Made by a program: the position numbers and the translations under genes
Source: Bacteroidaceae bacterium
Lineage (GTDB): Bacteria; Bacteroidota; Bacteroidia; Bacteroidales; Bacteroidaceae
Direction of reading: 5' to 3'
Assembly: GCA_902362375.1 (NCBI GenBank)
Contig: CABIVS010000015.1
Coordinates: 1-64,000 of the forward strand
DNA length: 64,000 nt
The notes under the pieces: generated by a model
Database searches by the model: none
What the model was told of the DNA's origin: nothing
What the model saw: the letters and a program-made list of their open reading frames with translations, nothing else
Shown here: piece by piece, positions 39,443 to 62,363 of the stretch
Layout of the letters: each line of letters starts with the position of its first letter
Numbering within the stretch: the stretch's first letter is position 1

Positions 39443-39520
39443 CAAAAGTATAGGATAGGATTGATGAAGTTGAATAAAAAAGAGAATAAAATGAAAACAA
39501 AATCCGGACAAAACGCAAAT
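39443..39520 (-). promoter_or_regulatory. PUL 2 promoter module, copy A (GH27)
   Basis: Read on the minus strand: TTTTG units with G at 39509 and 39498 (period 11) and a degenerate third unit upstream, a pyrimidine-rich tract, then the -7 box TACTTTTG at 39450-39443. The distance from the last repeat G to the first base of the -7 box is 48 bp, nearly as in copy D. Being in the divergent GH27/regulator gap, it could also control the regulator. Confidence 0.8.
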
Positions 39521-39616
39521 AAACCACTTTATGCTTGACAATTACTAGATTTTATTTGTATTTTCACAGCGGATTTTTATTTCTAAATAATTAGTTCGTG
39601 TTTAATTTTAATATAA

Positions 39617-41020
39617 ATGATGGACGAATATAAGGATAAAAGGTACATAAAGGAAATAATAAAAGAATATAATATTTTATTAGAGTCGTGGGGTTCTTCG
39701 GAGTCCTGGGACTTAAATCAATTTAAAACACTGGAAAATATGATCTTCGAAACAACGAAGATCGATGTAAATGCTAATACACTTAAACGATTTTTTCAGC
39801 AGAAGACAGGCAATCCACAGTTGGCGACAAAAGATGCTTTATGTCGTTTCTTAGGTTATTCGGGGTATACCGACTTTGTAATGAAGAAAACGAAGAAAGA
39901 AGAGGCTATCAGTATCCAGACGGAAGACGTTGTTGAAGAAACAAAGGAGCATACAGATGACACAGAAAAAAATGTAAATAGTTCCCAGCTGGATAACACG
40001 TCGAATAAAGTGACAAAAGATCCGGAAGAGGTATCGAATCGTATCTATAAGAAAAATAAATGGTATGTAAATTTTACTGCTATACTATTATTGGCAATAG
40101 TCGGATATATGTTGTATACATATAAATTAAAGGATATGTATGTGGAATATCTGATTTCAAAAATAGAATTTACCACTTCACAAGTAAAAGGAATATGCCC
40201 GCTTACAGTCACATTCTCCTATCATATACCAGCTTCATTATTTGAAGATATCACTGTTGTATATGAAGAAGCTAATGGGGATGTATCCGAAAGAAAACTA
40301 AATGAAAATATAGATAAGATAAATGCCACCTATATATATGAAGGTGAAGCATTCTGTCATCTGAAGTATAAAGATAGAATTATAAAGACCATTCCGGTGG
40401 AGTGCCGCAAGACGGGGTGGTCGGTTTTCGTCCGTGAGGAAAGAAAGAAAATATTTCGAGTTTTTCCGATGGAGCAGGCTTACAATGATTCGGGATATGT
40501 AAGTTTACCAATAGAAAATGTCCCACAAGAAGCGCATACTAACCACATGTTTGTCAGTTATGTGTTTTATAAAGAAAAGTTGATAGACGGAGATAATTTC
40601 ATATACGAGGCACGCGTTCGCAATTCAAAACAGGAGAATGCTGTTCCTTGCTCGGATATTATCATGTATATACATTCGGATACAGCTATGCATGGCTTTG
40701 CTATGAATGAAAACGGATATGCTTATATAAAATTCATCAGTGGAGAAAATACAATTAAGGGAGATGAGTACAACTTAAGCCGGTTTAATTTTAACTCTTC
40801 CGAATGGCATGTCATGACTATCAAAGTAGTGAATAAGAAAACTACCTTCTACGTAGATGGAGAAGAAGTGTTAGGTATGGATTATAATGAACCTTTGGGA
40901 TATGCCAATGAACTTACGTTAAGATTTAAGGGATGCGGAGCTGTAGATTATGTGAAAGTCTACAATCTTGATGGTAAGGTTGTATATGAAGAAAACTTCG
41001 ATTCAGATAAAAGAAAATAG
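39617..41020 (+). CDS. Putative membrane-anchored transcriptional regulator with extracytoplasmic PKD/LamG-like sensor
   Basis: A 467-residue protein of no named family. Residues 1-95 are helical and charged, with an HTH-like section typical of Bacteroidetes regulators (NTLKRFFQQKTGNPQLATKD, then FLGYSGYTDF). A Glu/Asp/Asn-rich linker (about 96-145) leads to one transmembrane helix (about 150-168, FTAILLLAIVGYMLYTY) preceded by KKNKW, which orients the N-terminus inside. Outside lie a PKD-like domain (about 185-260, GICPLTVTFSY) and a LamG/concanavalin-like domain (about 320-460, SSEWHVMTIKVVNKKTTFYV). I infer glycan sensing outside and DNA binding inside. It sits among PUL 2 genes that share one promoter module. 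No histidine kinase, sigma factor or AraC domain is present. Confidence 0.65.
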   Translation: MMDEYKDKRYIKEIIKEYNILLESWGSSESWDLNQFKTLENMIFETTKIDVNANTLKRFFQQKTGNPQLATKDALCRFLGYSGYTDFVMKKTKKEEAISIQTEDVVEETKEHTDDTEKNVNSSQLDNTSNKVTKDPEEVSNRIYKKNKWYVNFTAILLLAIVGYMLYTYKLKDMYVEYLISKIEFTTSQVKGICPLTVTFSYHIPASLFEDITVVYEEANGDVSERKLNENIDKINATYIYEGEAFCHLKYKDRIIKTIPVECRKTGWSVFVREERKKIFRVFPMEQAYNDSGYVSLPIENVPQEAHTNHMFVSYVFYKEKLIDGDNFIYEARVRNSKQENAVPCSDIIMYIHSDTAMHGFAMNENGYAYIKFISGENTIKGDEYNLSRFNFNSSEWHVMTIKVVNKKTTFYVDGEEVLGMDYNEPLGYANELTLRFKGCGAVDYVKVYNLDGKVVYEENFDSDKRK

Positions 41021-41034
41021 TACTCTCTTTTCTT

Positions 41035-41069
41035 ACAACCATCTTATACATAGGTGGTTGTCTTGTTTT
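41035..41069 (+). terminator. Intrinsic terminator of the regulator gene
   Basis: ACAACCA (41035-41041) pairs with TGGTTGT (41055-41061), and pairing extends inward by three positions including one wobble. CTTGTTTT follows. It lies 15 bp after the regulator stop and directly before copy B of the promoter module, separating the regulator from the GH105 operon. Confidence 0.7.
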
Positions 41070-41160
41070 GTTCATATTTTGTTCCTGTTTTGTTTTACCT
41101 TTTTCTCTCTTTTCTTAGCCTTTTGTTTGCATGGTTGCGGATGATTTGGGATAGATTTGC
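41066..41160 (+). promoter_or_regulatory. PUL 2 promoter module, copy B (GH105 operon)
   Basis: Three TTTTG units with G at 41070, 41081 and 41092 (exact 11-bp period), followed by CCTTTTTCTCTCTTTTCTTA and the -7 box TAGATTTG at 41152-41159. The last repeat G lies 60 bp before the first base of the -7 box, exactly as in copy C. Over about 95 bp, copies B and C look about three-quarters identical by eye, although the genes they serve are unrelated. Confidence 0.85.
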
Positions 41161-41220
41161 AATTGTTATCATCGTCCTGTTGGGCGCGTTAACTAAATCT
41201 ATATAATCTGAAATGATCCG

Positions 41221-43032
41221 ATGAAAAAGAAGAAATGGATATGCTTGTTATTATCTGCATTGTTGGGGGTAGGCACTGCTTTTCCTCAACAGAGCAAAGA
41301 ATCACCTGTAGAAAAAGTAAAGAAGATTGGTGATAAATTGATTAGAGAAACTCCCTTTGCTTACAAGCTGGGACTTGCTTCTCGTAGTACTTCTTTCAAC
41401 GCGTTAAACTTTGTGGATTTCGGGCGTACCTTCGGTTTGGGACAAGAAGCTGTGGCCTATGCCTATACACAGCTATCGTTTCCCCGAGATACCACCATAC
41501 GTGTAGAAACAGAGCATAACGATGCCTGTAAAATCTGGTGTAACGGACAACTGGTTTATGAAAATAAAGGGAAGCGGGATATTAAGATAAACCGCGGAGA
41601 ACGAAGTATGCAGATGACTTCTTCATTCTTGCTTCCGTTGAAAAGTGGTAATAACAATGTGTTGATAAAGTCGGCCACTTTCGGCAAAGAATGGTGTGTG
41701 TTCTTACAACCACCAAGTGATAATGATGCCGTTTTATCCATTGTCCGAAGTTATCCTCAAATAGGTTTAACCAATTTGAATAATGTTGATAAACAAGTAT
41801 CCAACCTTACCAACTGGCTCATTATCGGACCTTTTCGGGGTGGCATTGACGTAGTGCATGAACCGGAACAGGAATTCAAGTTTGGATATATGTATAAAGG
41901 ACTTCATTGTCCGGTGACTTGGACAATTCCTAAAATAGAGGTACTCGGAGAGATGATAGATCCCGAAGTTTGGGGAACTACTTACCAATGGAATTACCAT
42001 AATGGAGGTGTTGCCTGGGCCATGCAGCAACTTGGTGAACTGACCGGAGCAGATAAATATACCAAATGGGCAACTGACTTCTGCGACTATCAAATGGAAG
42101 GCATGCCATTTGTTGACTATCAAGTCAACAATTTGCGGGCATATAATTCAGCCAATGCGATGGTAATTAATTCCACATTACTTGATTTTACATTAGCTCC
42201 CTCACTTCCCATTCTATACCGTTTACGTACAGATAAGGATTTTAAGAATAGAAACATTTATCAGGCATACATTGATAAAATGACAAACTATGCACGTTTC
42301 GGGCAAATCAGAAGTGAAGGAATGACCAATTATACCCGTGATACTCCGGAAAAATATACAGTGTGGGTAGATGATATGTTTATGGGTATTCCTTTCTTGA
42401 TACAAGCTGGATTGTATAGCAATTCACCGGAGTTGCGAAAGATATTCTTCGATGATGCAGCCAATCAGATTATAGATTTTACGAAACATGTATGGAACAA
42501 AGACACTCGTCTTTATATGCATGCTAATTATACATCACGCCCCGGCATTAAACTACCTCATTGGTCACGTGCCAATGGATGGGCTATTTGGGCTATGTCT
42601 GACGTATTGATGGCATTGCCTAAGAGTCATCCCAAATACAAAGCAATACTCAAGCAATATCAGACTTTTGTCTATTCTCTGATAAAATATCAGAGTCCTG
42701 ACGGATTCTGGCATAATGTAATCGATCGTAGCGATTCTCCCAAGGAAGTTTCGGGTACGGCCATATTTACAATGGGTATAGCACGCGGTATCAGGTATGG
42801 CTGGCTGGATAAGAAAAAATTCATACCAATTGCATTGAAAGGATGGGATGCAGTGGCATCCGAGATCGAAGACGATGGAACGGTACATAAAATCTGTATA
42901 GGAACCATGTGTACTGAAGATGTAAACTATTATATGAACCGTCCATTTTTCGATGATGATACACATGGATCGTTTGCCGTCATATTTGCAGGTATAGAAG
43001 TCCAGCGAATGATGGATGAATACGCCAAATAA
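41221..43032 (+). CDS. GH105 unsaturated uronyl hydrolase with N-terminal beta-domain (PUL 2)
   Basis: A 603-residue exported enzyme that removes unsaturated galacturonate or glucuronate from lyase products. The catalytic (alpha/alpha)6 domain fills roughly residues 240-600, with YTVWVDDMFMGIPFL (catalytic Asp), HWSRANGWAIWAM and GFWHNVIDRSDSPKEVSGTA split around 495-515. About 200 extra N-terminal residues after the signal peptide form a beta-rich domain (TTIRVETEHNDACKIWCNGQ) resembling sugar-binding modules; classical GH105 proteins are near 370 residues. First gene of a three-gene operon. It implies that a lyase acts in this locus; the 588-residue gene at 54062-52296 is the candidate. Confidence 0.9.
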   Translation: MKKKKWICLLLSALLGVGTAFPQQSKESPVEKVKKIGDKLIRETPFAYKLGLASRSTSFNALNFVDFGRTFGLGQEAVAYAYTQLSFPRDTTIRVETEHNDACKIWCNGQLVYENKGKRDIKINRGERSMQMTSSFLLPLKSGNNNVLIKSATFGKEWCVFLQPPSDNDAVLSIVRSYPQIGLTNLNNVDKQVSNLTNWLIIGPFRGGIDVVHEPEQEFKFGYMYKGLHCPVTWTIPKIEVLGEMIDPEVWGTTYQWNYHNGGVAWAMQQLGELTGADKYTKWATDFCDYQMEGMPFVDYQVNNLRAYNSANAMVINSTLLDFTLAPSLPILYRLRTDKDFKNRNIYQAYIDKMTNYARFGQIRSEGMTNYTRDTPEKYTVWVDDMFMGIPFLIQAGLYSNSPELRKIFFDDAANQIIDFTKHVWNKDTRLYMHANYTSRPGIKLPHWSRANGWAIWAMSDVLMALPKSHPKYKAILKQYQTFVYSLIKYQSPDGFWHNVIDRSDSPKEVSGTAIFTMGIARGIRYGWLDKKKFIPIALKGWDAVASEIEDDGTVHKICIGTMCTEDVNYYMNRPFFDDDTHGSFAVIFAGIEVQRMMDEYAK

Positions 43033-43067
43033 CTGATGTAAAAAAATAGATATCCAAATATAATATT

Positions 43068-49984
<6,917 letters not shown>

Positions 49985-50007
49985 GCTTTTAAATTTATAA
50001 AAGGGTC

Positions 50008-50080
50008 GTCCGAAAAGTCTTGATCTAATGAATCACCTTTGCTACAGCATATCGTAGCAAAGGTGATTTCTTTTTTCAGG
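50008..50080. repeat. Hairpin element related to the MITE-like sequence; probable terminator of the GH2 operon
   Basis: A perfect 15-bp stem, 50031-50045 with 50054-50068, around an 8-base loop, followed by CTTTTTT. Flanks (GGGTCGTCCGAAA before, GGTGATTTC within) resemble those of the element at 26019-26139, so it looks like a decayed copy of the same repeat family. It starts 24 bp after the GH2 stop and is well placed to terminate the operon. Confidence 0.65.
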
Positions 50081-50327
50081 AACTTTCAATCCTCTCGTCA
50101 GAATAAGGTGTAGCATTGGTCATTTAGAATTCAGTGATGAAAATGGCCAACTGTACACGGTCCTGAAAGTGTATTTGTATAATAAATGGAATAGTGTGTA
50201 TGTATCATAAATTTATCGTTTATATATATAGTACACGGTTGTTTGTTTCTTACGATATTTATTTTATTGAAATATCTTTATTGTTTATGCATAAACAGCT
50301 TTATCGTTTCTAATAGATTTTTGAAGA

Positions 50328-50362
50328 GTTTATTAGAAACGTTGTTTGAGTTTATTAAAAAC
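50328..50362. repeat. Direct repeat GTTTATTAnAAAC, period 22 bp
   Basis: GTTTATTAGAAAC at 50328-50340 and GTTTATTAAAAAC at 50350-50362. The same motif and period appear at 29113-29147. A perfect palindrome GTTTATGCATAAAC (50283-50296) lies just upstream. No gene start is close to it. Confidence 0.6.
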
Positions 50363-50409
50363 TATATGGAAGATTTTATCGGCATTTATATTGAATTTAT
50401 GTAACAAGA

Positions 50410-50577
50410 AAGGCTGCAGAATTCATAGAATTTCGCAGCCTTAGCTATTGACAGGATTTCTGTCCACTGTATTTTTATATAATTACTTAGTTTATTTGTT
50501 TCAATTTATTTGTTTTTAAATCCATTCTTTATTCGTCTTTTTTGATTGATGATCTATATTCTTGTTTTACAAATATA
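50410..50577 (-). ncRNA. Candidate orphan minus-strand ncRNA (about 155 nt)
   Basis: On the minus strand TTTG (50601-50598), a 20-bp spacer and TATATTTG (50577-50570) make a consensus promoter inside the 669-bp gap 49985-50653. The RNA would begin near 50563 and end at a hairpin with arms AAGGCTGC and GCAGCCTT (50442-50410) followed by TCTTG. A smaller hairpin (GACAG/CTGTC) lies within. No gene follows on this strand before the opposed GH2 gene, so this promoter does not serve a normal protein gene. A 12-codon frame is present but unremarkable. Confidence 0.5.
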
Positions 50578-50653
50578 CAACATAAAAAGAGCGTTTCCAA
50601 ATTTTTGCGATATACAGAATTAAAAGTATTCTTAGTGGTTTGTATTGAACACC

Positions 50654-52291
50654 TTACTTCTGAAATATTTCAGGGTATTTCCTGATAAAATAAACAGGCG
50701 TACAGCTCCAAGCGTGGCAATAGCTGTTGATAGGATAAAAATCGTATGGAGAAATAAAGTCGTTTGTAGGATCGTATGCCTCCCAAAATGTATCGGCTCC
50801 TTTGGCGATCATCCCTCCCCAATAATTGACTAAAGCCTCTTTGGCTTCGAGATTCATGCCACAATCTATCAGCGACTGAATATAATAATGATACATATAA
50901 GGAGTGCCGGGATAACAAACATCCTGTGTTGTAGTTAATGCTGATAAAGCCTTTTTGCCTTCGGCTTTACTGGTAACTCCGCTTAAAATCATCCATATCT
51001 GTGACGCATAAGAAATCTGTTTGTCACCTGTTCCGACGAAAAGGCCGGTTTTCCGATTGTATAAGTTTTTGCGGGCAGCCTTTATCATTTTGTTAGTTAA
51101 TGCAGGCAAGTCGGCAACTTCTTTTTCTTTTCCGAGCAGTTGAGCCAACTTATAGGATTCCTTTAGTGCAAATATGGATACTCCTTGTAAGGGAACCTCT
51201 TTATACAAATCCTCTTTCCAATCGAAGAAGACCCACCAGTCTTTCTTTACTTTCTCAAAATCCATCAATCCATTCGCCTTGACATTGGTACGGACAATAT
51301 CCAGTTGCTTTTTAGCCACAGGCCACAAGTCTTTGACAGTTTCCATATCGCCCGTTGCTTCCAGGTAGTCTTTCAATGTTACATTATACAGTAGCGCATA
51401 TTCATAAAGAAACTGTTTGTCCTGGGCTCTCGGTACAGGATTTTCAATTACTGTAGCCAACAGATATCCGTTCAGGTCGCTCAATCCGGCCAACAAATAC
51501 AAACACCGTTTTGTAAGGTCGTGCTGCTTGTAAGAATAATTGTTGCCAAGAGCTTCCAGATATAAATCCCCGATCCAAAGACGCTGATCTCTCTTCGGAC
51601 CATCCTCGTAAACGGTTTGCATACATTCTTTCAGTGTATTGAGTCCGACACGATCTATTTTCCTTATCATGGGATCAACTGTCTGCGGAAGCTCTTCAGG
51701 TATGTTTCTGGCAGAAGTTTGAGCCATACATTTTATATCATGTATGTTGAAATCATAATAAGGGGAACTGCCCAGCAACTCTATTTTCACATAGCGGAAA
51801 GCCAGCCTGCGTGAAAGATTGACTGTTTGCGGCACATACATTACAGAAACAACTTCGTCCTGCAGCCATGCCCTGCTTAAGCCTTCTTTATAAGAATCAA
51901 AAGGGACAGCCACTTCCGAAGGAACTTCCCCGAAGGTCAATTTCAACCTTAACGGACCGTCGGCTGCAAGCCCGGTACTCCTTACAGAGAAACTGAAATA
52001 TCCGGTCAGATGCTCTCCGAAGTCAATCGTAATTTCTTTTTTCAGTCTGAAAGGCATAGAGTATAAAGAGTCGATAGGACTGACATCTACTGCTTTGTAT
52101 TTCTGAAACGATTGTGCGTCGGGTACAATATCTACTACTTTCAGTGGCTTTTTCTCTGTGATTATAAGTTTCGGTTTATATTGCTCTGCTTTTTGTAGCC
52201 ACTGCTTACGGTTGTTCCCATAATAGTCTTGTGCAAAACAAGCGATTGTGATGAATACCAGTGTCAAGCTGAATAAGATAGATTTCGTCAT
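50654..52291 (-). CDS. Short GH78-type alpha-L-rhamnosidase (PUL 2)
   Basis: A 545-residue exported protein, last gene of the SusC/D operon. After the signal peptide (ACFAQ) comes one beta-sandwich (IDFGEHLTGYFSFSVRS), then an (alpha/alpha)6 barrel with EDGPKRDQRLWIGDLYLE, the GH78 signature carrying the predicted acidic residues, and GADTFWEAYDP with the predicted base Glu. It is much shorter than typical GH78 enzymes (the other GH78 here has 856 residues), lacking extra N- and C-terminal beta modules. It starts 4 bp after the preceding gene. Rhamnosidase activity is probable but not proven for this compact subgroup. Confidence 0.82.
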   Translation of the reverse strand: MTKSILFSLTLVFITIACFAQDYYGNNRKQWLQKAEQYKPKLIITEKKPLKVVDIVPDAQSFQKYKAVDVSPIDSLYSMPFRLKKEITIDFGEHLTGYFSFSVRSTGLAADGPLRLKLTFGEVPSEVAVPFDSYKEGLSRAWLQDEVVSVMYVPQTVNLSRRLAFRYVKIELLGSSPYYDFNIHDIKCMAQTSARNIPEELPQTVDPMIRKIDRVGLNTLKECMQTVYEDGPKRDQRLWIGDLYLEALGNNYSYKQHDLTKRCLYLLAGLSDLNGYLLATVIENPVPRAQDKQFLYEYALLYNVTLKDYLEATGDMETVKDLWPVAKKQLDIVRTNVKANGLMDFEKVKKDWWVFFDWKEDLYKEVPLQGVSIFALKESYKLAQLLGKEKEVADLPALTNKMIKAARKNLYNRKTGLFVGTGDKQISYASQIWMILSGVTSKAEGKKALSALTTTQDVCYPGTPYMYHYYIQSLIDCGMNLEAKEALVNYWGGMIAKGADTFWEAYDPTNDFISPYDFYPINSYCHAWSCTPVYFIRKYPEIFQK

Positions 52292-52295
52292 ATTA

Positions 52296-54062
52296 TTAAT
52301 CCTCTTTACTATCTGTCACGTTCCAATTTCTGAAGTCATACACGCGTGATTCTTTTCCATGCGAAACATTCAGGAAACGTCCGTTCACCGCTTGTTCCAT
52401 CCATGGGTTTGAATACAAAGGCCAATTTTCATAATCCACCTTTTCTCCGTTGACGAAACGTCCGTAGTTGTAGATAATTTTTAGTGTATCACCGCTAAGT
52501 GAGTGATAAATGGTCTGTCGGTATTCCGGATTGGTAACGATGTATTCCAGTTTCGTTGTTTTCAGTATATCTTCTGCAAACAGGTCCAAAGCTGTTTGCG
52601 TTCCTGTAGGCTGATATTTATCCGGCAAACAGGTTTCTATGACTGCGGCAGTGCCACGTTGGTCACAGCGTAACATCTTATGTTTTACCCCGCGGAACAT
52701 CCGGTCTTCGTCCCATGTGTATGGATGACAGAATTTTACGGCAAACAGAACACTTCCTCCGTCAAAGAATATCCAGCCGGATTTGTCCTCTTTCATTTGT
52801 TTTATTGCATCAATAGGCACTACTCCTGTCACATACGGATGGGGTTCTTCCGATTCTATTTTATACATGGCCAGCAACGTGCCGTTATGTTGTAATACTT
52901 GTTCGCGACAAGTAGCTCCGAAAAGGCTTTCGGCTGATCTACCATAATGACTGATATGAGTCAGGAAGAAAGTACTTGCGGGTGCATCCGATTCCCATAC
53001 TAGTTTCCACCGGCGCATCTGCGCGCTCCATCCCAGACTGATTCCATCCCATTGACTGGCTAATCCATACGTTTTGTTGATATATGTATATTTCTTGAAT
53101 CCCCATGGATAGTTGAGTTGTGCAAATGGAGTCATATCATGCGATTCTTTATGTACGTATGCATTTTTTCTATCCGATGCTATATGCTGTATAATCTCTG
53201 GTACACGATAGGAAGAAACGGCCGCCAGTACAGAGTAAAAGCCTTCATTGTTCACAATCAACTCTCCGTTTTCATACTTTTGCTCTAATACCGGATTGGG
53301 ACCGCCACCAAAAAACAACCAGCCTAAAAGTGGATAAGGACTCATCATATGGGGAGAACAAGCAAAATAATATTCCCGTAGAGAGGAAGATATGAAATAA
53401 CCATTCAACCATTCGGGTGCCATGTTGAGTAAATGCCATTCAAGAGTCATTTGTACCTGTTTCTTAAATTCAGCATCCTTGCTGTGGTCATACAAAGAAA
53501 GAAGGCAAGTGATATAGAATGTGCCGTACGTAGGAGAATCAAACTCTTTGATACCATAACGTACCGTCTTATCCATTACATCCATAAGTACTGAACGGCA
53601 ATGTGCCATTACCGTGTCGGCTTTCCCCCAGTCGGGGAAAGCCAGTGCGGTAAGATATCCAGCTGTTTTAAACATCAGTCTATGATTTTCGGTACTTCCA
53701 TCTGCCAAATAATCCTCGCTTGTCATACGTTTCCGTACCTTCTCTTTCAGCTCTTTCGGGTATACAGACTGAAAGCGTAGATACGCGTCGATATTCTGAT
53801 GACAATCGAACATGTCGAAGGGTGCATCTTCCTGCATCCGGTTCAGCATATCCAGAGCATACTTGACATCTTTCTTTGTTTCCAGGCGAGCTAAAACAAA
53901 TCCCATTGCTGTCTTGATATCGTTATCTCCCCAATATTGGTCGTTTGGACGGGCTTTGGAGTAATAATCAAGGAGATATTTTTTCCGCTCGTCAAAAGAA
54001 GACGCAGAGGTGAGAGAGAGAAACAGAAAAGCAAATGCCAGTAAAATCAACAGCTTTTTCAT
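52296..54062 (-). CDS. Unrecognised secreted protein, possible (alpha/alpha)-toroid polysaccharide lyase (PUL 2)
   Basis: A 588-residue exported protein that I cannot assign to a named family. Residues about 20-300 are strongly helical, with STENHRLMFKTAGYL near 125 (an Asn-His pair like those of toroid lyases) and SPTYGTFYITCLLSLYD. The second half is beta-rich, with TYINKTYGLASQWDG near 340 and FFLTHISHYG. The layout, toroid followed by beta-sandwich with Asn-His and Tyr, is that of the heparinase/alginate/hyaluronate-lyase superfold. A lyase would supply the unsaturated uronates needed by the GH105 at 41221. It sits 2 bp after susD and 4 bp before GH78. Confidence 0.5.
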   Translation of the reverse strand: MKKLLILLAFAFLFLSLTSASSFDERKKYLLDYYSKARPNDQYWGDNDIKTAMGFVLARLETKKDVKYALDMLNRMQEDAPFDMFDCHQNIDAYLRFQSVYPKELKEKVRKRMTSEDYLADGSTENHRLMFKTAGYLTALAFPDWGKADTVMAHCRSVLMDVMDKTVRYGIKEFDSPTYGTFYITCLLSLYDHSKDAEFKKQVQMTLEWHLLNMAPEWLNGYFISSSLREYYFACSPHMMSPYPLLGWLFFGGGPNPVLEQKYENGELIVNNEGFYSVLAAVSSYRVPEIIQHIASDRKNAYVHKESHDMTPFAQLNYPWGFKKYTYINKTYGLASQWDGISLGWSAQMRRWKLVWESDAPASTFFLTHISHYGRSAESLFGATCREQVLQHNGTLLAMYKIESEEPHPYVTGVVPIDAIKQMKEDKSGWIFFDGGSVLFAVKFCHPYTWDEDRMFRGVKHKMLRCDQRGTAAVIETCLPDKYQPTGTQTALDLFAEDILKTTKLEYIVTNPEYRQTIYHSLSGDTLKIIYNYGRFVNGEKVDYENWPLYSNPWMEQAVNGRFLNVSHGKESRVYDFRNWNVTDSKED

Positions 54063-54064
54063 AC

Positions 54065-55675
54065 TTAATATCCTTTACTTTGTTTCATTAATGGATTCGT
54101 TCTCAATTCACTTTCAGGTATCGGAAGATAATAGTCTTGTGGATCGTAATGTACAGTTCCTGCCTTTGTTGAAGGATATTTGGCCAATTCCTGTTCCAAT
54201 ATTCCCCAACGGCAAATATCATACCAACGGATATTTTCAAAGAATAGCTCTTTGTAACGTTCTTCCTGAAGGATTTCCATGGTGACAGTCGAAAAATCTT
54301 CTCCTTTTGTACCGGGTACGTCGTAGTTACTTTCTCCCCATGCCCGGCGACGGACTTTGTTCACATATTCGGTGGCCACATCTACAGAGTTCAGTTTGAG
54401 CATTACTTCGGCATACATCAGATAAATATCCGCCAAGCGGATGATATCTACATTCTTGGTTGAGAATACAGGTGAAGACACGTTATAGAAGTCGGTATAC
54501 TTACGTGCGTAATATCTGTAATCGGGCACATCCGTATCCGCCTTTATAAATGTAATGCCGGTAGTGGCTGTACTCCAAGCCTGCCATGTATAATCGTATA
54601 ATGTAGCTTCATACAGACGTGGATCGTCTCCGAATCGTGCAGCAGTACGTTGATCGACGAAAAAGTTGTTCCAGGCACCCGGAGCTCCTCCGAAGATACG
54701 AACCAGGTGATGTTGGGGGGCATCATCATAGGCACTTCCTGACGAGAGGTAATATTGCAGGGAGAAGATACATTCGGGATTGTTGTCCGTATGCTGAATG
54801 TAATCTGTAAAGTTGACCGGTTTGTCCAATTTGAAGCGGCTGTCGCCTATCACTTTCTCAAATTCTGTCTTGGCATTGGCATAGTCGCTCATATACAGAT
54901 ACACTTTTCCGAGTAATGCATGTACAGCCGGTTTTTGGGCCCATCCCTGGTCTTTTGTATAATCAGTGTCTGTATAGCCGGGACCGGGTACTGCAGTATT
55001 GACCGGGATCTGGTTGTCTCCAATGCAGGTTTCGGCTTTTTTCAGATCCTTGATTATCAATTGATAACATTCTTCAATAGTTGATCTGGCTGTAATTGCA
55101 TTACTAGCGTCTGCAATACCTTCCATCAGAATGATTCCTTTCGCATCCTTGTTGTTTGGATACATTCCCCCGAAAGAAGGTCCTTGTTCTCCGAACAGGC
55201 GTAATAGATCGAAATGTATGAATGCTCTTAAAAATAAACTTTCACCCTGGAAGTTCATTACCATTGTTTTTTTCTCTTCATCCAGCGCTTCCAAGTCTAC
55301 ATGGTCGATCAAGTCTAGCATGAGATTGGCAGAAGCCAAGGCTTTATAGTATTTTATGTAGGCCTCTTCTACATTCTTGTTGCTGGAAGTGAGCCCATTG
55401 ATGGCCCATTGATTACGTTGTTCTTCGCCCAGCCAATCAATATCCATTTCGTGCGACATGGTTGACATATATTCCGTCTGTCTTCCATAAAGCATGATAG
55501 AACCTAGAGACCTGTAAGCGCTTCCCAAAAATTCGCCTAACTTTGCGGGGTTTTTTTGTATGATTTCTCCAATATTATCGTCTGATACAGACGTTGTTAG
55601 AGGATGATCCAGAAAATCACTGCATGCTGATGTCAGAAGCAGACATCCTGCTATGAACATATATTTAATTTTCAT
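54065..55675 (-). CDS. SusD-like surface glycan-binding lipoprotein (PUL 2)
   Basis: A 536-residue RagB/SusD-family lipoprotein. Lipobox ending TSAC with Cys18, then SDFLDHPLTT. The helical segments FQGESLFLRAFIHFDLLRLFG and the C-terminal VNKVRRRAWGE and EERYKELFFENIRWYDICRW split over 430-490 are typical. It begins 18 bp after susC, and the next gene begins 2 bp after it. Ligand unknown; the surrounding enzymes suggest a glycan with rhamnose, galactose, mannose and uronic acid. Confidence 0.97.
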   Translation of the reverse strand: MKIKYMFIAGCLLLTSACSDFLDHPLTTSVSDDNIGEIIQKNPAKLGEFLGSAYRSLGSIMLYGRQTEYMSTMSHEMDIDWLGEEQRNQWAINGLTSSNKNVEEAYIKYYKALASANLMLDLIDHVDLEALDEEKKTMVMNFQGESLFLRAFIHFDLLRLFGEQGPSFGGMYPNNKDAKGIILMEGIADASNAITARSTIEECYQLIIKDLKKAETCIGDNQIPVNTAVPGPGYTDTDYTKDQGWAQKPAVHALLGKVYLYMSDYANAKTEFEKVIGDSRFKLDKPVNFTDYIQHTDNNPECIFSLQYYLSSGSAYDDAPQHHLVRIFGGAPGAWNNFFVDQRTAARFGDDPRLYEATLYDYTWQAWSTATTGITFIKADTDVPDYRYYARKYTDFYNVSSPVFSTKNVDIIRLADIYLMYAEVMLKLNSVDVATEYVNKVRRRAWGESNYDVPGTKGEDFSTVTMEILQEERYKELFFENIRWYDICRWGILEQELAKYPSTKAGTVHYDPQDYYLPIPESELRTNPLMKQSKGY

Positions 55676-55693
55676 ATTTATATTTTTATCTGA

Positions 55694-58600
55694 TTAAAAA
55701 CCAACATTAAGACCAAATGAAATAGAACGGGACTGAGGATATTGAGTTAAGCTATATACTCCCTGTTCGGCATTGTTATTACCTATAAATTCAGGATCAA
55801 ATCCTTTGAATTTAGTGAATGTCAGTGCATTTTCTACTCCTACATAAATTTTCAGTTTTGATAATTTCATTTTAGATACTACCGATTTCTTAAAGTTATA
55901 TCCTAGCTGAATGTTTTTTAATCTCAAGTATGAACCATCCTCAACCATATATGAGTTAGGCAATTGATAGTTGTGGGTAGCATTACCCAGACGAGGTTGG
56001 CTGGTTTGGGTATTGTTGGGTGTCCATGCATTCCACACATCCGGAGTTGAGTTCCAGTCAGCATTCATATTTTCAAGACATTGTTTGGTATTGTTGTATA
56101 TATCTCTGTCAGCTACCCCCTGCCAGTTCATGTTGAACTCAAAACCTTTGTATTCCAAGTTCACATTGAATCCATATACATATGTTGGCCAAGGGTTACC
56201 TATTGAAGTCATGTCTTCATCATTGATACGTCCGTCTCCATTCAGGTCTTTAAATTTAATATCTCCCGGGCCTATATTTCCTGCATCGTATGCTACGCCC
56301 CATTTTTCCATTGATATCGTATTCAAGGCATCTATTTCTGCCTGTGTTTGATACAATCCGTCTGCTACGTATCCCCAAAATGCTGCTACCGGTCCGTCTA
56401 CGAGTGTGCGATTGAAGCTTCCTCCGGACAAATAGCTGGCATTACCGATGTTTAGTACTTTATTTTTGTTGTACGAGATATTTCCACTTACGAGGTAGTT
56501 GAAATGATTGATTGATCCTCTGTATGACAAAGCCACTTCAATACCTTTGTTGCTGATTTCTCCTTTGTTCAACTTATAAGTACTACTACCAACACCGATA
56601 TGTGAAGGCATTTTTTGTTCAATCAATGCATCGCGTGTTTTCTTGTTGTATAGGTCGATAGTGGCTGTAAAAGCATTATTCCATGCTCCAAGATCTATTC
56701 CGATGTTAGTTATTCTTGTTTTTTCCCATGTTACGTCTTTATTCGGAGTTTTCTGGGCCAACCAAGTACCATTCGTTTGTAATTTATATTCTTGTCTCCA
56801 CCAGTTTTTGTCTATACTGTTGTTGCCAATTTCTCCGATACCAAACCTTAGTTTCAAGTCATTAATCTTTTCTACTTTAAAGAACTTCTCATTGGCTATG
56901 TTCCAACCAACAGACACAGATGGGAAGAAAGCGCTTCTTTTGCCCGGAGCAAATATATCAGTGGCATCATTTCTAAAGTTCGCTGTTAGCAGATAGCGGT
57001 TGTCATAAGCATAGGTAACACGTCCGAATATGGAGTAGCTACTTCCTGTAGCCCAAGAGTTGGTACCGTCTCTGTGATCGGTAAGAGCAGTACTTCTTAA
57101 GTCTTGAGCCGGTATACCCCATTCAGCATATCCTGATGCGTCATCATTACGTGATTCTCTTACTTCGAAACCGACCATTGCTCCAAGATCGTGTTTACCA
57201 ATCAATTTATTATAGTTTACGTATGTATTCAACAAGTAGGAAGTACTTTGATTGTGAGAATAATCCAATTGGTGTCCTTGGATGTTTTTTCCTTCCACAA
57301 AGTCAATAGAGTTGGTTGATATGCCTCCAAATGTATTATATAAGAAGCTTGAAGTCGCATGATTGCTAAGAGTTCCTGTCAGGTTGGTAGTCCATACCAG
57401 TCCTTTTATCGGGGTGATGATTACTTGCAAATTTCCCCATGCAACGTTCCATTTCTCCCAATGATCTTTCAAGTCAGCGCTTTCCAATGGGTTTCCTCCC
57501 TGCCAGTCGATTGTTCCTGCAAATTCATCAGTGAAGTATCCATATCCTGTACCCATCGGGTTGGTGTCATCGTATACATTCATGGCTGGATTAGCGCGAA
57601 GGACGTGTTGCCAGTTCAATGCATTATGTTTTCTTTTTGAGTGACTGAAATTTACTGTCTGACTGAATTTTAGCCATTTCAATGGAGTTTGTTCGAATCG
57701 GGTTTTAATGGCCCATTTCTCGTAGTTTGTATTCACATAGGTACCCTCGTCATTCTCGTACATGGCAGAAAGGAAATAAGATGATCTATCGGAAGCTCCG
57801 GAGATGTCAATGCTATGAGAATGTTCTATTCCGGTGCCAAACATAACGTCTACCCAATCAGTATTAGGCAATTGCGATACTTCATTTGGAGTCAGGAAAT
57901 AGAACGATTTAATATCATTAGTTGTAGGTTCGCCCTTATCCGGATTGTTGGACATCCATCTGGCCTTGTACATATCAATGTAACCTTGGGTTCCCAGCAT
58001 TTCAGGAAGTCCGAGGGCATGGTTTATCTTTACGTATCCGTTGTAGTTCACGGCTATTCTTCCTTTAGCACCTTTCTTGGTTGTCACCAATACGACTCCA
58101 TTGGCTGCTTCAATTCCATAGATGGCGGCGGATGCGGCATCTTTTAATAATTGGATAGACTCCACTTCATTAAAATTATCCAGTGGCATTCCAGGCACTC
58201 CATCGATAATCCAGAGTGGAGCGGCATTATTTAGTGTTCCTACACCGCGCATATATACAGAGGAACCCTCACCGGGTAATCCGCTTTTCCTTGATACATA
58301 GACGGGTGCTTTTCCTTGTAGGGCTTGAGAGGCATCATTGGTGGCCATCGTATGTAGGTCTCGTGTGCCCAAAGATGTAATAGATCCGGATACATTCGCT
58401 TTCTTTTGTACACCATAACCTACGACGATGACTTCTTCCAGCTGCTTAGAGTCTTCTGTTAATACAACTTTCAGATTTTTACTTTGGTTGTTTACAGCGA
58501 TTGTTTGTGTAATGTATCCTACATAGCTGAAAGTCAGTTTCCCGGTAGCATTTTTCAGCTTAATCGAGAATTTACCATCTATATCGGTTATTACCCCGTT

Positions 58601-58756
58601 TGTAGTTCCCGTCTCGGTCACTGTAACACCTATCAGAGGATCATTCTGATCGGAAATAACAGCTCCATTGACGACTGCTGTACCCTGTGCGTTCGTATAT
58701 TGTATTCCCGTCAGGAATATCAATATCAGAAGCTTAATTTTTAAGTACTTTTTCAT
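55694..58756 (-). CDS. SusC-like TonB-dependent outer-membrane glycan transporter (PUL 2)
   Basis: A 1020-residue transporter. I start it at ATG 58756 (MKKYLKIKLLILIFL), which gives a signal peptide ending YTNAQ; the open frame extends to 58933, but the predicted -7 box at 58803-58796 lies inside that extension. The carboxypeptidase-regulatory-like domain follows (about 25-100), then the TonB-box-like EEVIVVGYG, the plug (LWIIDGVPGMPLDNF, DAASAAIYGIEAANGVV) and the barrel. First gene of a four-gene operon. It has no STN domain. Transcription is probably driven by module copy D. Confidence 0.97.
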   Translation of the reverse strand: MKKYLKIKLLILIFLTGIQYTNAQGTAVVNGAVISDQNDPLIGVTVTETGTTNGVITDIDGKFSIKLKNATGKLTFSYVGYITQTIAVNNQSKNLKVVLTEDSKQLEEVIVVGYGVQKKANVSGSITSLGTRDLHTMATNDASQALQGKAPVYVSRKSGLPGEGSSVYMRGVGTLNNAAPLWIIDGVPGMPLDNFNEVESIQLLKDAASAAIYGIEAANGVVLVTTKKGAKGRIAVNYNGYVKINHALGLPEMLGTQGYIDMYKARWMSNNPDKGEPTTNDIKSFYFLTPNEVSQLPNTDWVDVMFGTGIEHSHSIDISGASDRSSYFLSAMYENDEGTYVNTNYEKWAIKTRFEQTPLKWLKFSQTVNFSHSKRKHNALNWQHVLRANPAMNVYDDTNPMGTGYGYFTDEFAGTIDWQGGNPLESADLKDHWEKWNVAWGNLQVIITPIKGLVWTTNLTGTLSNHATSSFLYNTFGGISTNSIDFVEGKNIQGHQLDYSHNQSTSYLLNTYVNYNKLIGKHDLGAMVGFEVRESRNDDASGYAEWGIPAQDLRSTALTDHRDGTNSWATGSSYSIFGRVTYAYDNRYLLTANFRNDATDIFAPGKRSAFFPSVSVGWNIANEKFFKVEKINDLKLRFGIGEIGNNSIDKNWWRQEYKLQTNGTWLAQKTPNKDVTWEKTRITNIGIDLGAWNNAFTATIDLYNKKTRDALIEQKMPSHIGVGSSTYKLNKGEISNKGIEVALSYRGSINHFNYLVSGNISYNKNKVLNIGNASYLSGGSFNRTLVDGPVAAFWGYVADGLYQTQAEIDALNTISMEKWGVAYDAGNIGPGDIKFKDLNGDGRINDEDMTSIGNPWPTYVYGFNVNLEYKGFEFNMNWQGVADRDIYNNTKQCLENMNADWNSTPDVWNAWTPNNTQTSQPRLGNATHNYQLPNSYMVEDGSYLRLKNIQLGYNFKKSVVSKMKLSKLKIYVGVENALTFTKFKGFDPEFIGNNNAEQGVYSLTQYPQSRSISFGLNVGF

Positions 58757-58795
58757 TGTTTTAAATTTTAAAGTTATACAAAACGAATTTTGCTG

Positions 58796-58878
58796 TAAAA
58801 GTATTGCATTTAGATCAATGTGACCGAATGAAAAAAGCAATAAAGTAAAAACAAAACATGAACAAAATACAAACAAAA
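58796..58878 (-). promoter_or_regulatory. PUL 2 promoter module, copy D (susC operon)
   Basis: On the minus strand three TTTTG units with G at 58874, 58863 and 58852 (period 11), a T-rich tract, then TACTTTTA at 58803-58796 as a -7 box with one mismatch. The last repeat G to the -7 box is 49 bp. The tract TTTTGTTCATGTTTTGTTTT aligns nearly base for base with the other copies. It leaves a roughly 33-base leader before the SusC start. Confidence 0.8.
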
Positions 58879-59051
58879 GTGCTTTGGCCAAGGGTTTGGC
58901 GGATAATAGAGGGTTTCTCTCGTCTTTGTTCAAGACAAATATATTCTATTATTGGATGACTGTACCGGAAATTTGTTTCTTTTTGGGGATGCTATAAATC
59001 AAATAGAGGTAAGGTTGGGAGCAATCGCTTATGTGCGTGGTCATTATCGTA

Positions 59052-59146
59052 CTTTGTTTATGTTTTGTTCGCGTTTTGTTTTTCCTTTTTCTCTTCTTTC
59101 TTAGCTTTTTGTAGACATATATATGGAGATTTTGGGATAAATTTGC
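59052..59146 (+). promoter_or_regulatory. PUL 2 promoter module, copy C (GH92 operon)
   Basis: TTTG units with G at 59056, 59067 and 59078 (period 11), then CCTTTTTCTCTTCTTTCTTA and the -7 box TAAATTTG at 59138-59145. The repeat-to-box distance is 60 bp, identical to copy B. Together with copy D it fills the 413-bp divergent gap between susC and GH92. Confidence 0.85.
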
Positions 59147-59169: not shown

Positions 59170-61449
59170 ATGAGAAAAATAATATGGACCATCATGGCGT
59201 TATGTGCCCTGTCCGGGTGCAGATACGAAAATAGTACTATCAGTGCAGATAGTTTGTTGGACTTTGTCGACCCATTAATAGGTACAGGTGGACATGGACA
59301 TACGTTTCCGGGGGCAGCATACCCTTTCGGAATGGTACAATTAAGTCCTGACACAGGACTTGAAGGATGGGATTGGTGTTCCGGCTATCATTATTCCGAT
59401 AGTTCCATCATTGGTTTTTCTCATACGCATCTTTCGGGTACAGGACGTTCCGATCTGATGGATGTGATGTTGATGCCTGCGACGGGAAATTTGAAATTGA
59501 ATCCGGGATCGAAAGATAAACCGGATGAAGGATATCGCTCCCGTTTTTCACATGATGAGGAGTCTGCATCTCCGGGATATTATAAAGTAAGGTTGAAAGA
59601 TTATGATATTATGGCTGAATTGACCGTATCTCCTCGATGCGGTTTTCATCGTTATACCTTTCCTGAAAGTAAATCTTCTCATATTATATTGGATTTATCT
59701 CATCATTTCGCAACTGATTCTGTTCTTTTTACTTCCATGAATAGGATAGACAGTTGTACAATAATAGGTGAAAGGAGGACAAAAGGCTGGGGTGAGCCCG
59801 GAGAAAAATACTGGAGTGAACAACAATTGTTTTTTGCTTTGAAAGTATCTAAGGCATTTGACTTGTCTGTTGCTGTGGATGATCTGTTTATTCAGGAAAA
59901 ACAAGCTTCCGGCAAAAATATAAAAGCTATTCTTAATTTTGAAACTTCCTCTAATGAGATGGTGTTAGTAAAAGTGGGAATATCTGCTATAAGTGCAGAA
60001 AATGCACTTCAAAATCTTTCGGAAGAGATACCGCATTGGGATTTTAACAAAACGCTTAGCGAGACACAGTCGATATGGGAAAAAGAATTATCAAAGATTA
60101 AGGTAGAAGCTTCTGATAAGAATAAAATAATTTTTTACACAGCGCTGTACCATTCTTTATTGGCCCCTTATTTGTATAATGATGTGAATAAAGAGTACTT
60201 GGGCCTTGATAAACAGATACATACAGCCGAAGGGTTCAATAACTATACAGTGTTGTCGCTGTGGGATACTTTTCGTGCTGAGAATCCGTTATTAACGTTG
60301 ATTGCTCCAGATAAAACGAACGATCTGGTACAATCTATGCTTGCGCAGTATGATCAGTATGGATTACTGCCGGTGTGGCCATTATGGTCGAGTGAAACAA
60401 ATTGTATGATTGGCTATCATGCCATTCCGGTTATTGTAGACGCATACTTCAAAGGTATAAGAAATTATGATGTGGAAAAGGCGTATCAAGCCATGAGGAC
60501 ATCGGCTATGCAGGATAACTTTGGTGTGAAAGAGCTGAAACAATACGGTTATATTCCTTATGACATTTACAATAAATCGGTTTCTGCGGCTTTGGAATAT
60601 TGCTATGACGATTGGTGTATAGCTCAAATGGCCAAGGACTTGGGTAAGATGGATGATTATAACTATTTTATAAGCCGGTCTTCCGGTTATAAAACATATT
60701 TTGACAAAGAATATAAACTAATGAACGGTTTTTCGAGCAAAGGCAGTTTCCGCCGTCCGTTTGATCCTTTCTTTTCATCTTATGGGGAATGTGATTGGGT
60801 GGAAGGAAATTCATGGCAATACTCTTTCTTTGTTCCTCACGATGTGCAAGGGTTGATAAATCTATATGGGGGCAGTGAGGAATTTGTCAATGCTCTCGAT
60901 ACCTTATTTTCCATGCCTATGGGTATGTCAGGCCATGATGTGCCGATAGATATAACCGGACTTATCGGCCAGTATGCACATGGCAATGAGCCTAGCCATC
61001 ATGTAGCTTATCTTTATAATTATGCGGGCCAGCCTCATAAAGCTCAACAACGGTTGCATGAAATCATGTCTACTTTGTATACTGATCGGCCGGACGGATT
61101 ATGTGGTAATGAGGATTGCGGGCAAATGTCGGCTTGGTATGTCTTCAGCGCGATGGGATTCTATCCTGTGAATCCCGCGGAAGGAATATATATTCTGGGT
61201 AAACCGATGGTAGAAAATGTTGAAATTACCATTGGAAACAAGCTCTTTAAAGTGAAAACAGCAGGGTGGAGTGATGAGAACATATATGTGCAATCGGTGA
61301 AACTTAATGGTGAGGTTTATAATAAGCTTTTTATTACACATACCGATATAGTGGATGGAGGAATCTTGGAATTTACGATGGGTTCGGTTCCGGGTAACTT
61401 TGGGGATTCGGTTTTACCTCCGTCTTTATCTGAAATTCTAAGTGAATAA
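59170..61449 (+). CDS. GH92 exo-alpha-mannosidase lipoprotein (PUL 2)
   Basis: A 759-residue calcium-dependent inverting alpha-mannosidase. Start chosen at ATG 59170 (MRKIIWTIMALCALSGC, lipobox Cys17): the longer frame from 59065 begins upstream of the -7 box. GH92 signatures: PLIGTGGHGHTFPGAAYPFG, GFSHTHLSGTG, GYHAIPVIVDAY, and GNEDCGQMSAWYVFSAMGFY near the C-terminus. GH92 enzymes release alpha-1,2/1,3/1,4/1,6-mannose depending on subgroup, which cannot be decided here. Its stop codon overlaps the start of the next gene by one base. Confidence 0.94.
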   Translation: MRKIIWTIMALCALSGCRYENSTISADSLLDFVDPLIGTGGHGHTFPGAAYPFGMVQLSPDTGLEGWDWCSGYHYSDSSIIGFSHTHLSGTGRSDLMDVMLMPATGNLKLNPGSKDKPDEGYRSRFSHDEESASPGYYKVRLKDYDIMAELTVSPRCGFHRYTFPESKSSHIILDLSHHFATDSVLFTSMNRIDSCTIIGERRTKGWGEPGEKYWSEQQLFFALKVSKAFDLSVAVDDLFIQEKQASGKNIKAILNFETSSNEMVLVKVGISAISAENALQNLSEEIPHWDFNKTLSETQSIWEKELSKIKVEASDKNKIIFYTALYHSLLAPYLYNDVNKEYLGLDKQIHTAEGFNNYTVLSLWDTFRAENPLLTLIAPDKTNDLVQSMLAQYDQYGLLPVWPLWSSETNCMIGYHAIPVIVDAYFKGIRNYDVEKAYQAMRTSAMQDNFGVKELKQYGYIPYDIYNKSVSAALEYCYDDWCIAQMAKDLGKMDDYNYFISRSSGYKTYFDKEYKLMNGFSSKGSFRRPFDPFFSSYGECDWVEGNSWQYSFFVPHDVQGLINLYGGSEEFVNALDTLFSMPMGMSGHDVPIDITGLIGQYAHGNEPSHHVAYLYNYAGQPHKAQQRLHEIMSTLYTDRPDGLCGNEDCGQMSAWYVFSAMGFYPVNPAEGIYILGKPMVENVEITIGNKLFKVKTAGWSDENIYVQSVKLNGEVYNKLFITHTDIVDGGILEFTMGSVPGNFGDSVLPPSLSEILSE

Positions 61450-62363
61450 TGAGAAGTCTGAAGCTCCTGTTATATCTGTTTATATCTTGCTTGTGTTTTG
61501 GTTGCAAGTCTTCTTTGCCCCAAAAAAGCCGGATAAATAAGCAAAATGATGTGTATGTTTTGTCTTTTGCTGACCTCTCTTTCAGCGTATCGGCAAAAAA
61601 GGGGGGACGGATTATTTCTTTTAAATGCAGAGATAAGGAACTGCTGACTTCTGATTTGGTACATAGTAAGTATTACGGAGCAACGTTCTGGTTATCTCCA
61701 CAGTCAAACTATTGGCCACAATATCGGTGTGTCGATGAGCTTCCTTATAAGGCAGAGATAGACGGACAAATTCTTCGACTGGTGAGTTCGCCGGATTCTT
61801 TAAGCGGTATCTCTATCATTAAGGAGTTTTCTGTATCAGAAAGAGATTCATCTATATTGATTAATTATTCTGTTCGGAATGTATCTTGCCAGCTAAAGAG
61901 ATTTGCCCCCTGGGATGTGGTGAGAGTGCATGGAGGTTTGAGCTTTTTCCCTGTAGGAGAGGCAGATCAGATGAATAAGTCTGATGTCACGGGAGCATAT
62001 GAGGATAAGGGTATAATGTGGGTTCCATGTCCGGATGGTACCAATGAGAGAGGTCAGAAATTATACTCGACTGCTTATGAAGGTTGGATCGCTCATTATT
62101 ATAAGGAGCTTCTGTTTATAAAATGTTTCCCGGACATTGGACCCGGTGAAGTTCCTCCCGGACAAGGTGAAGCAGAGATTTTCGTAGCACCGAAGGGGCG
62201 GTATCTGGAACTTGAAAATCACGGAAGATATACAGAACTGTCACCCGGAGAGTCTTTGGTATATCAACAAAAATGGTTTTTGAAAGATGTGTCCGACGGG
62301 AGAGTATCTGATTGGACCAGCAAATTGAAAAGATATATAGATAAACAAAAAAAACGTAGATAA
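61449..62363 (+). CDS. DUF4380-type lipoprotein, mutarotase-like beta-fold (PUL 2)
   Basis: A 304-residue lipoprotein with lipobox CLCFGC (Cys19). The body is beta-rich, with SFSVSAKKGGRIISF, GATFWLSPQSNYWPQ and a terminal YQQKWFLKDV; these fit the DUF4380 family, whose fold resembles galactose mutarotase domains. No catalytic function is established for the family. Its start overlaps the GH92 stop (TAATG), so the two are translationally coupled, implying a partner role in handling mannose-containing fragments. Confidence 0.75.
   Translation: MRSLKLLLYLFISCLCFGCKSSLPQKSRINKQNDVYVLSFADLSFSVSAKKGGRIISFKCRDKELLTSDLVHSKYYGATFWLSPQSNYWPQYRCVDELPYKAEIDGQILRLVSSPDSLSGISIIKEFSVSERDSSILINYSVRNVSCQLKRFAPWDVVRVHGGLSFFPVGEADQMNKSDVTGAYEDKGIMWVPCPDGTNERGQKLYSTAYEGWIAHYYKELLFIKCFPDIGPGEVPPGQGEAEIFVAPKGRYLELENHGRYTELSPGESLVYQQKWFLKDVSDGRVSDWTSKLKRYIDKQKKRR

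Follow-up and report, generated by a model that had tools for sequence, protein, structure and literature searches.

The stretch of DNA analysed here (the window: 64,000 nucleotides, positions 1 to 64,000 of contig CABIVS010000015.1, assembly GCA_902362375.1, from a Bacteroidaceae bacterium) contains at about 37.4-62.4 kb a polysaccharide utilization locus (PUL) with four transcription units, each headed by one copy of a promoter module. A glycoside hydrolase family 27 (GH27) gene on the minus strand is followed by a candidate regulator gene and a GH105 unit on the plus strand, by susC/susD with a GH78 gene on the minus strand, and by a GH92 gene with a DUF4380 gene on the plus strand (Table 1). 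The module consists of tandem 11-bp units of the form TTTTGTTCnnn, with TTTGTTC as their core, a T/C-rich stretch and a TAnnTTTG box, which the accessible portions of two reports give as the consensus at -7 for the Bacteroides primary sigma factor (PMC7366714, PMC12632263). The gene at 39617-41020 is the likely regulator of these arrays.

Table 1. Genes, promoter arrays and predicted protein domains of the locus (positions in the window)
Feature	Positions	Strand	Remarks
GH27	37454-39406	-	target of array A
Array A	39443-39520	-	promoter of GH27; -7 box TACTTTTG (39450-39443)
Candidate regulator of the arrays, 467 aa	39617-41020	+	without a Pfam or NCBIfam family or a PDB relative by sequence
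Regulator residues 1-101, five-helix DNA-binding-like domain	39617-39919	+	predicted; weakly like lambda-repressor/XRE/POU domains
Regulator residues 148-170, predicted transmembrane helix	40058-40126	+	19-residue windows of highest hydropathy begin at residues 149-153
Regulator residues 265-453, concanavalin/galectin-like beta sandwich	40409-40975	+	predicted; presumed extracytoplasmic glycan sensor
Array B	41066-41159	+	promoter of GH105 operon; -7 box TAGATTTG (41152-41159)
GH88/GH105-type hydrolase	41221-43032	+	target of array B
1210-aa protein	43068-46700	+	presumed array B operon; kept in PUL elsewhere; no Pfam or PDB match
GH2, beta-galactosidase-type	46712-49984	+	presumed array B operon
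GH78-type alpha-rhamnosidase	50654-52291	-	presumed array D operon
588-aa protein	52296-54062	-	presumed array D operon; kept in PUL elsewhere; no Pfam or PDB match
SusD	54065-55675	-	presumed array D operon
SusC	55694-58756	-	target of array D; named by relatives and position before SusD, not by Pfam scan
Array D	58796-58878	-	promoter of susC/susD; near-consensus -7 box TACTTTTA (58803-58796)
Array C	59052-59145	+	promoter of GH92; -7 box TAAATTTG (59138-59145)
GH92	59170-61449	+	target of array C
DUF4380 protein	61449-62363	+	presumed array C operon

With up to 3 mismatches allowed, a 29-base pattern (TTTTGTYCNNNTTTTGTTTTNNNTTTWTY) matched the window five times, at copies A-D without any mismatch and at one 11-bp-shifted position inside B, against an expectation of 0.00 in 100 shuffles; no fifth copy was found in the window at this tolerance. 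The original prediction had placed four copies with 11-bp direct repeats ahead of GH27, the GH105 operon, GH92 and susC, and both their places and their strands are borne out. A shorter, 20-base pattern, also at up to 3 mismatches, added three weak window matches near 10850, 16544 and 18243, none of them with further units. Since the 29-base pattern was derived from copies A-D, the test in other genomes described below weighs more. The start of susC was taken as the ATG at 58756, the listing of open reading frames having an upstream TTG at 58933.

The same prediction spoke of a -7 box at a set distance, which holds for the helical phase (8, 9, 9 and 9 modulo 11 in A, B, C and D) but not for the distance itself, the first matched unit lying 63, 86, 86 and 75 bp from the box, respectively. 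The module can be longer or shorter by full turns of the helix, not by part-turns, and an array-to-box phase fixed modulo 11 is what a row of proteins along one DNA face would demand. The box of array D is one base off TAnnTTTG. When periods of 8, 9, 10, 12, 13 and 14 bp were compared with 11 bp, the alternatives scored lower in 15/15 upstream regions, which were drawn from the window and related loci and preselected by their 11-bp score (at least 16/20 for four units at 11 bp); one candidate site (L002, at 8827, score 16) was excluded from the corresponding phase table as unlike the others.

The candidate regulator and its relatives

From its structural model and hydropathy, the protein encoded at 39617-41020 is predicted to carry an N-terminal DNA-binding-like domain, one transmembrane helix and an outer sensor domain. 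The N-terminal domain is predicted to be all-helical and helix-turn-helix-like, and comparison of its fold with solved structures gave nothing significant. The putative membrane helix reaches a best hydropathy of 1.67 over 19 residues from residue 151, with basic residues preceding it, and the C-terminal domain of the predicted structure has the jelly-roll beta sandwich of the concanavalin/galectin-like lectin fold. No other regulator domain was found in the 12 window-region proteins scanned (the candidate regulator included, SusC not among the 12), and a search of viral contigs for regulator relatives gave no match. Two single records, both perhaps assembly chimaeras, join a piece of the regulator to a protein with kinase-type Pfam domains (P0106) or to one with PF01467/PF06574 (P0004).

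A scan of genome contigs for the regulator gave 19 loci, 14 of them near-full-length (48-66% identical) and five partial, chiefly the N-terminal domain. The near-full-length loci are distributed over 13 genomes of Bacteroidales and Chitinophagaceae, namely a Dysgonamonadaceae metagenome-assembled genome (MAG), two Tannerella MAGs, Coprobacter secundus (two copies), one Dysgonomonas, seven Chitinophaga and one Niastella. The PUL context is conserved, with a GH105 homologue on the fetched locus in 12 of these 14 loci and the 1210-aa protein, GH92, GH27 or susC/susD often present too. The 1210-aa and 588-aa proteins share 69-78% identity with their homologues in related PULs, where found, and are candidates for new carbohydrate-active enzymes. 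The two regulators of C. secundus (L004 and L012), 61% and 49% identical to that of the window, each have their own arrays and PUL genes, and at 1380-1800 of L038 (G009:C41) a short regulator remnant with stops is flanked by one array on either side, apparently the decayed relic of a second locus copy.

Occurrence, placement and composition of the arrays

An initial search pattern gave 0 matches in the 13 regulator genomes and was replaced, before the genome counts, by one tested on known sites. This pattern, TTTG-N7-TTTR-N7-TTTR-N7-TTT-N{26,50}-TAnnTTTG, is blind to phase and was run with its reversed form as control; it recovers arrays A, B and C of the window and misses D, because the box of D ends in A. 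The 13 regulator genomes (76.6 Mb in total) gave 23 matches (21 distinct sites), found in 11 of them, against 1 for the reversed control. In 148 Bacteroidales genomes that lack the regulator at a cut-off of E 1e-20 there were 11 matches in 8 genomes (reversed control 8), and in 247 Chitinophagales genomes without a close relative 8 matches in 8 genomes (reversed control 3). Matches per genome thus amount to 1.8 with the regulator and 0.05 without it, the latter near the reversed control, which supports the dedicated site originally proposed.

The sites also concentrate around the gene itself. As had been anticipated for PULs with homologues of the 39617-41020 gene, 15 of the 21 strict sites lie less than 20 kb from a regulator gene, in DNA that makes up about 0.7% of the sequence searched, and 10/13 genomes have a strict site in the PUL of the regulator. 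A relaxed look at the other three (G003, G008 and G012) found an array upstream of susC with a -7-like box at phase 9, the boxes being TATTTTTG, TATTTTAG and TATCTTAC at 312, 174 and 49 bp from the susC ATG, respectively.

The remaining six strict sites lie beyond 20 kb from the regulator gene, and the array therefore marks genes elsewhere in these genomes too. Three of them, in Chitinophaga (L082, L083, L084), each stand ahead of a gene for a lipoprotein-type product of 527-530 aa, whose homologues in three other genomes (L007, L009, L086; 76-79% identical) are the first genes of the susC operon in the regulator PUL, likewise with an array upstream. The last three (two in L079, one in L081) come from two genomes and have related neighbour genes, with 81% and 61-63% identity for the two gene pairs. 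The 527-530-aa lipoprotein resembles, by eye, a right-handed beta helix. In one control genome, a 4-kb contig (L106; G503:C645, 81-172) carries 11-bp repeats at phase 8, with two full TTTGTCAGTTG units and a partial third, and is possibly another system of this kind.

Placement was tabulated for 27 sites, comprising the four of the window, the 21 strict sites, one more Coprobacter array and one array beside a distant relative (L091); overlapping matches within 45 bp were merged for the phase count, and an array without an exact box (L008) and the relaxed G003 and G008 sites were excluded from it. An exact TAnnTTTG is present in 25/27 sites and has phase 8 or 9 of 11 in every one of these. Each of the 27 sites is upstream of an open frame of more than 100 codons, with 25-78 bp from the -7 position to the ATG; where an exact box is missing (two sites), this position is assumed.

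Base composition was counted over 83 units from 18 Bacteroidales sites and 39 units from 9 Chitinophagaceae sites, where positions 1-3 are fixed by the counting itself and position 4 partly so. At the free positions, the share of Bacteroidales and Chitinophagaceae units, respectively, is 90% and 83% for C or T at position 0, 99% and 100% for A or T at position 5, and 0% and 5% for G at position 6; this selectivity indicates that the units are more than bare T tracts. The Chitinophagaceae units consist mostly of three T's with GC-bearing spacers, and their core is TTTGATCGCA or TTTGTTTGCA.

Proposed mechanism and alternative explanations

Taken together, the arrays are probably the operators of a membrane-tethered, glycan-sensing one-component activator, the product of 39617-41020, which would bind them as a row on one face of the DNA; direct binding, ligand sensing and activation by this protein are what we infer. 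The outer lectin-like domain would sense a glycan fragment in the periplasm, and binding of the glycan would shift the N-terminal domain, which would be kept at the membrane's inner face, to another state. This helix-turn-helix-like domain would bind the 11-bp units (core TTTGTTC in Bacteroidales; in Chitinophagaceae, TTTGATCGCA/TTTGTTTGCA), one monomer beside the next along one DNA face. The row so formed, whose end would keep a constant helical phase relative to the TAnnTTTG box downstream, would recruit or position RNA polymerase. The bound regulator would thus turn on GH27, the GH105 operon, GH92 and susC/susD.

Some observations on the control genomes weigh against this interpretation. 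Control matches stand at phase 8-9 in 9 of 19 cases, against 24% expected, the 19 including three overlapping matches of one G068 repeat, and because they lean to the same phase as the arrays, the phase preference may in part be common to promoters in general; the comparison of 25/25 sites with 9/19 controls gives a Fisher p of 4e-5. Some control matches are also placed like promoters, the box lying 23-40 bp before a frame of more than 100 codons in L073, L076 and L105, and 110 bp before one in L075. Furthermore, at E 1e-15 distant relatives of the regulator turn up in 5/247 of the Chitinophagales control genomes, one of which (G643) has 1 of the 8 matches.

The lean of the controls, mild as it is, would also be expected if the arrays bent the DNA through T/A tracts in helical phase, or served the primary sigma factor as a generic upstream element, with no dedicated regulator involved, and T-rich units at helical spacing do have the look of curved DNA. 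Such an explanation appears very improbable given that the pattern stays near its reversed control (19 versus 11 matches) in the 395 genomes without a close relative of the regulator, that unit positions 5 and 6, which the search pattern leaves free, remain selective, and that the Chitinophagaceae units are mostly three T's with GC-bearing spacers. It is hardly probable, too, that the arrays serve another regulator, for example a sigma factor with its gene elsewhere or a hybrid two-component system, which travels with these PULs: the arrays track the candidate across two orders, an array also lies between a distant relative (L091) and the neighbour of that relative, and none of the 12 proteins scanned has another regulator domain. 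In favour of this explanation, regulators can work from other loci, the domain scan covered the window region rather than the neighbourhoods of the related loci, and binding by the candidate is itself a proposal.

If the candidate does bind the arrays, it might instead repress the genes and release the arrays when the glycan is present, given that folds like those of phage repressors often belong to repressors and that the sign of control is inferred. Repression seems unlikely, since the arrays are placed ahead of the -7 box, on the same face of the helix and at distances varying by whole turns, and such placement is typical of activators, whereas repressor sites usually overlap the core promoter.

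Known regulator classes and a wider domain family

Regulators of the ToxR/CadC type possess a cytoplasmic N-terminal DNA-binding domain of the OmpR-type winged-helix fold, one transmembrane helix and an outer sensing domain. The predicted layout of the candidate regulator is the same, but its domains differ, with a five-helix, weakly XRE-like domain and a lectin-like sensor. SARPs, for their part, are soluble winged-helix activators. Their operators in Streptomyces are described, in the accessible part of one report, as tandem units of 11 bp, each a heptamer plus 4 bp, with the monomers thought to sit on one DNA face (PMC5930380). As far as that description goes, the arrays share, in their sequence layout, such tandem 11-bp units on one DNA face; the candidate regulator, in contrast to SARP and OmpR-type proteins, has no Pfam match (the winged-helix Trans_reg_C/BTAD domains included), its DNA-binding-like domain is predicted to be all-helical, and it is predicted to be membrane-tethered. 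By the class criteria tested, it is filed with neither the SARP nor the ToxR/CadC type.

PUL control in Bacteroides is described, in the accessible sections of one source, as the work of SusR-like proteins, hybrid two-component systems and sigma/anti-sigma pairs (PMC3878776). According to the same sections, SusR-like regulators sense sugar in the periplasm and control PUL operons through direct-repeat operators, SusR having a putative helix-turn-helix near its C terminus and predicted boxes 67 or 77 bp apart (PMC3878776). Periplasmic sugar sensing for PUL operons is likewise proposed here, with direct-repeat operators; by that description, the candidate is set apart by the N-terminal position of its DNA-binding-like domain (1-101), its lectin-like C terminus and units only 11 bp apart. 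Hybrid two-component systems of the AraC type are said there to link periplasmic glycan sensing to PUL promoters in one polypeptide, at two direct-repeat sites averaging 21 bp apart (PMC3878776). A single polypeptide linking glycan sensing to promoters with direct-repeat operators is also what is proposed for the candidate, but it has no kinase, receiver or AraC domain (0 Pfam and 0 NCBIfam families), and the arrays have four or more units at 11 bp rather than two sites about 21 bp apart, as given there. Extracytoplasmic function (ECF) sigma/anti-sigma pairs of PULs are described in the same text as exerting transmembrane control of susC-type operons (PMC3878776), a feature that the proposed system would share with that description; it differs in that no sigma or anti-sigma domain was found in the 12 region proteins scanned and in that the array promoters keep an ordinary TAnnTTTG box. 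A matching system was not found in an open-access literature search of narrow scope, covering mostly titles and the beginnings of abstracts.

If the activator interpretation is true, a one-component class with its own operator grammar would be added to PUL control, a run of "hypothetical protein" genes in PULs would gain a role, and targets outside the locus would be findable by sequence. For building glycan-responsive promoters, an operator whose code is the number of units and the helical phase would be a convenient part.

The N-terminal domain is present in 31/198 Chitinophagales genomes (E 1e-7) and in 8/118 genomes drawn from the phylum (E 1e-5), and an extension of the array-regulator pairing to this wider family is only suggestive. 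In L091, four exact TTTG units with an 11-bp period, at phase 9, lie between a relative of 23% identity and its divergent neighbour, and five further loci (L034, L044, L099, L109, L110) have TTGAACGG-type tandems near the gene of the relative. Three-unit TTGAACGG tandems at 11 bp occur in 5/26 distant loci, against 1, 3, 1 and 1 at periods of 9, 10, 12 and 13 bp and 1 at 11 bp in 22 control loci, the unit having been chosen after L034 and L110 had been viewed. The close relatives have 11-bp TTTG units, and some distant members carry, beside their own genes, units of the TTGAACGG type with an 11-bp period or different ones with a period of 9-10 bp.

A unit-blind scan of 53 distant members showed 11 bp to be no commoner than 10 bp. 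With periods 9-11 pooled, a set chosen after looking at the data, z>3 was reached by 11/50 distant members and 11/134 control upstream regions (Fisher p 0.013) and z>2.5 by 13/50 and 14/134 (p 0.0098), after overlap and shared 20-mers had reduced 53 regulators to 50 and 223 controls to 134; three other period sets gave no enrichment in the same comparison. An earlier run, whose control set contained true sites, gave 10/53 versus 24/245 (p 0.055). In a reverse search, a TGAACGG tandem matched seven times in 248 genomes (reversed control 5), and the domain was found in none of the seven 3-kb loci. Because the unit-blind test is marginal and the reverse search shows no linkage, a family-wide 11-bp rule stays an unproven lead. 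It is conceivable, if rather doubtful, that a Bacteroidota-wide family of membrane-tethered proteins combines this N-terminal domain with lectin-like or other outer domains, each member binding its own array of direct repeats spaced by about a helical turn (9-11 bp), such that the occupancy of a row, and not of a dimer site, sets the output.

Tandems with a 9-bp period (AATGAACT-, TTTGAACGG- or AATGGATTT-like) were seen upstream of N-terminal-domain genes for proteins of 184-224 aa (L139, L140, L141, L145, L148), and tandems with a 10-bp period, with units such as CTTGCA or AATGAAA, upstream of other members of the domain family (L094, L095, L018/L019, L015, L133).

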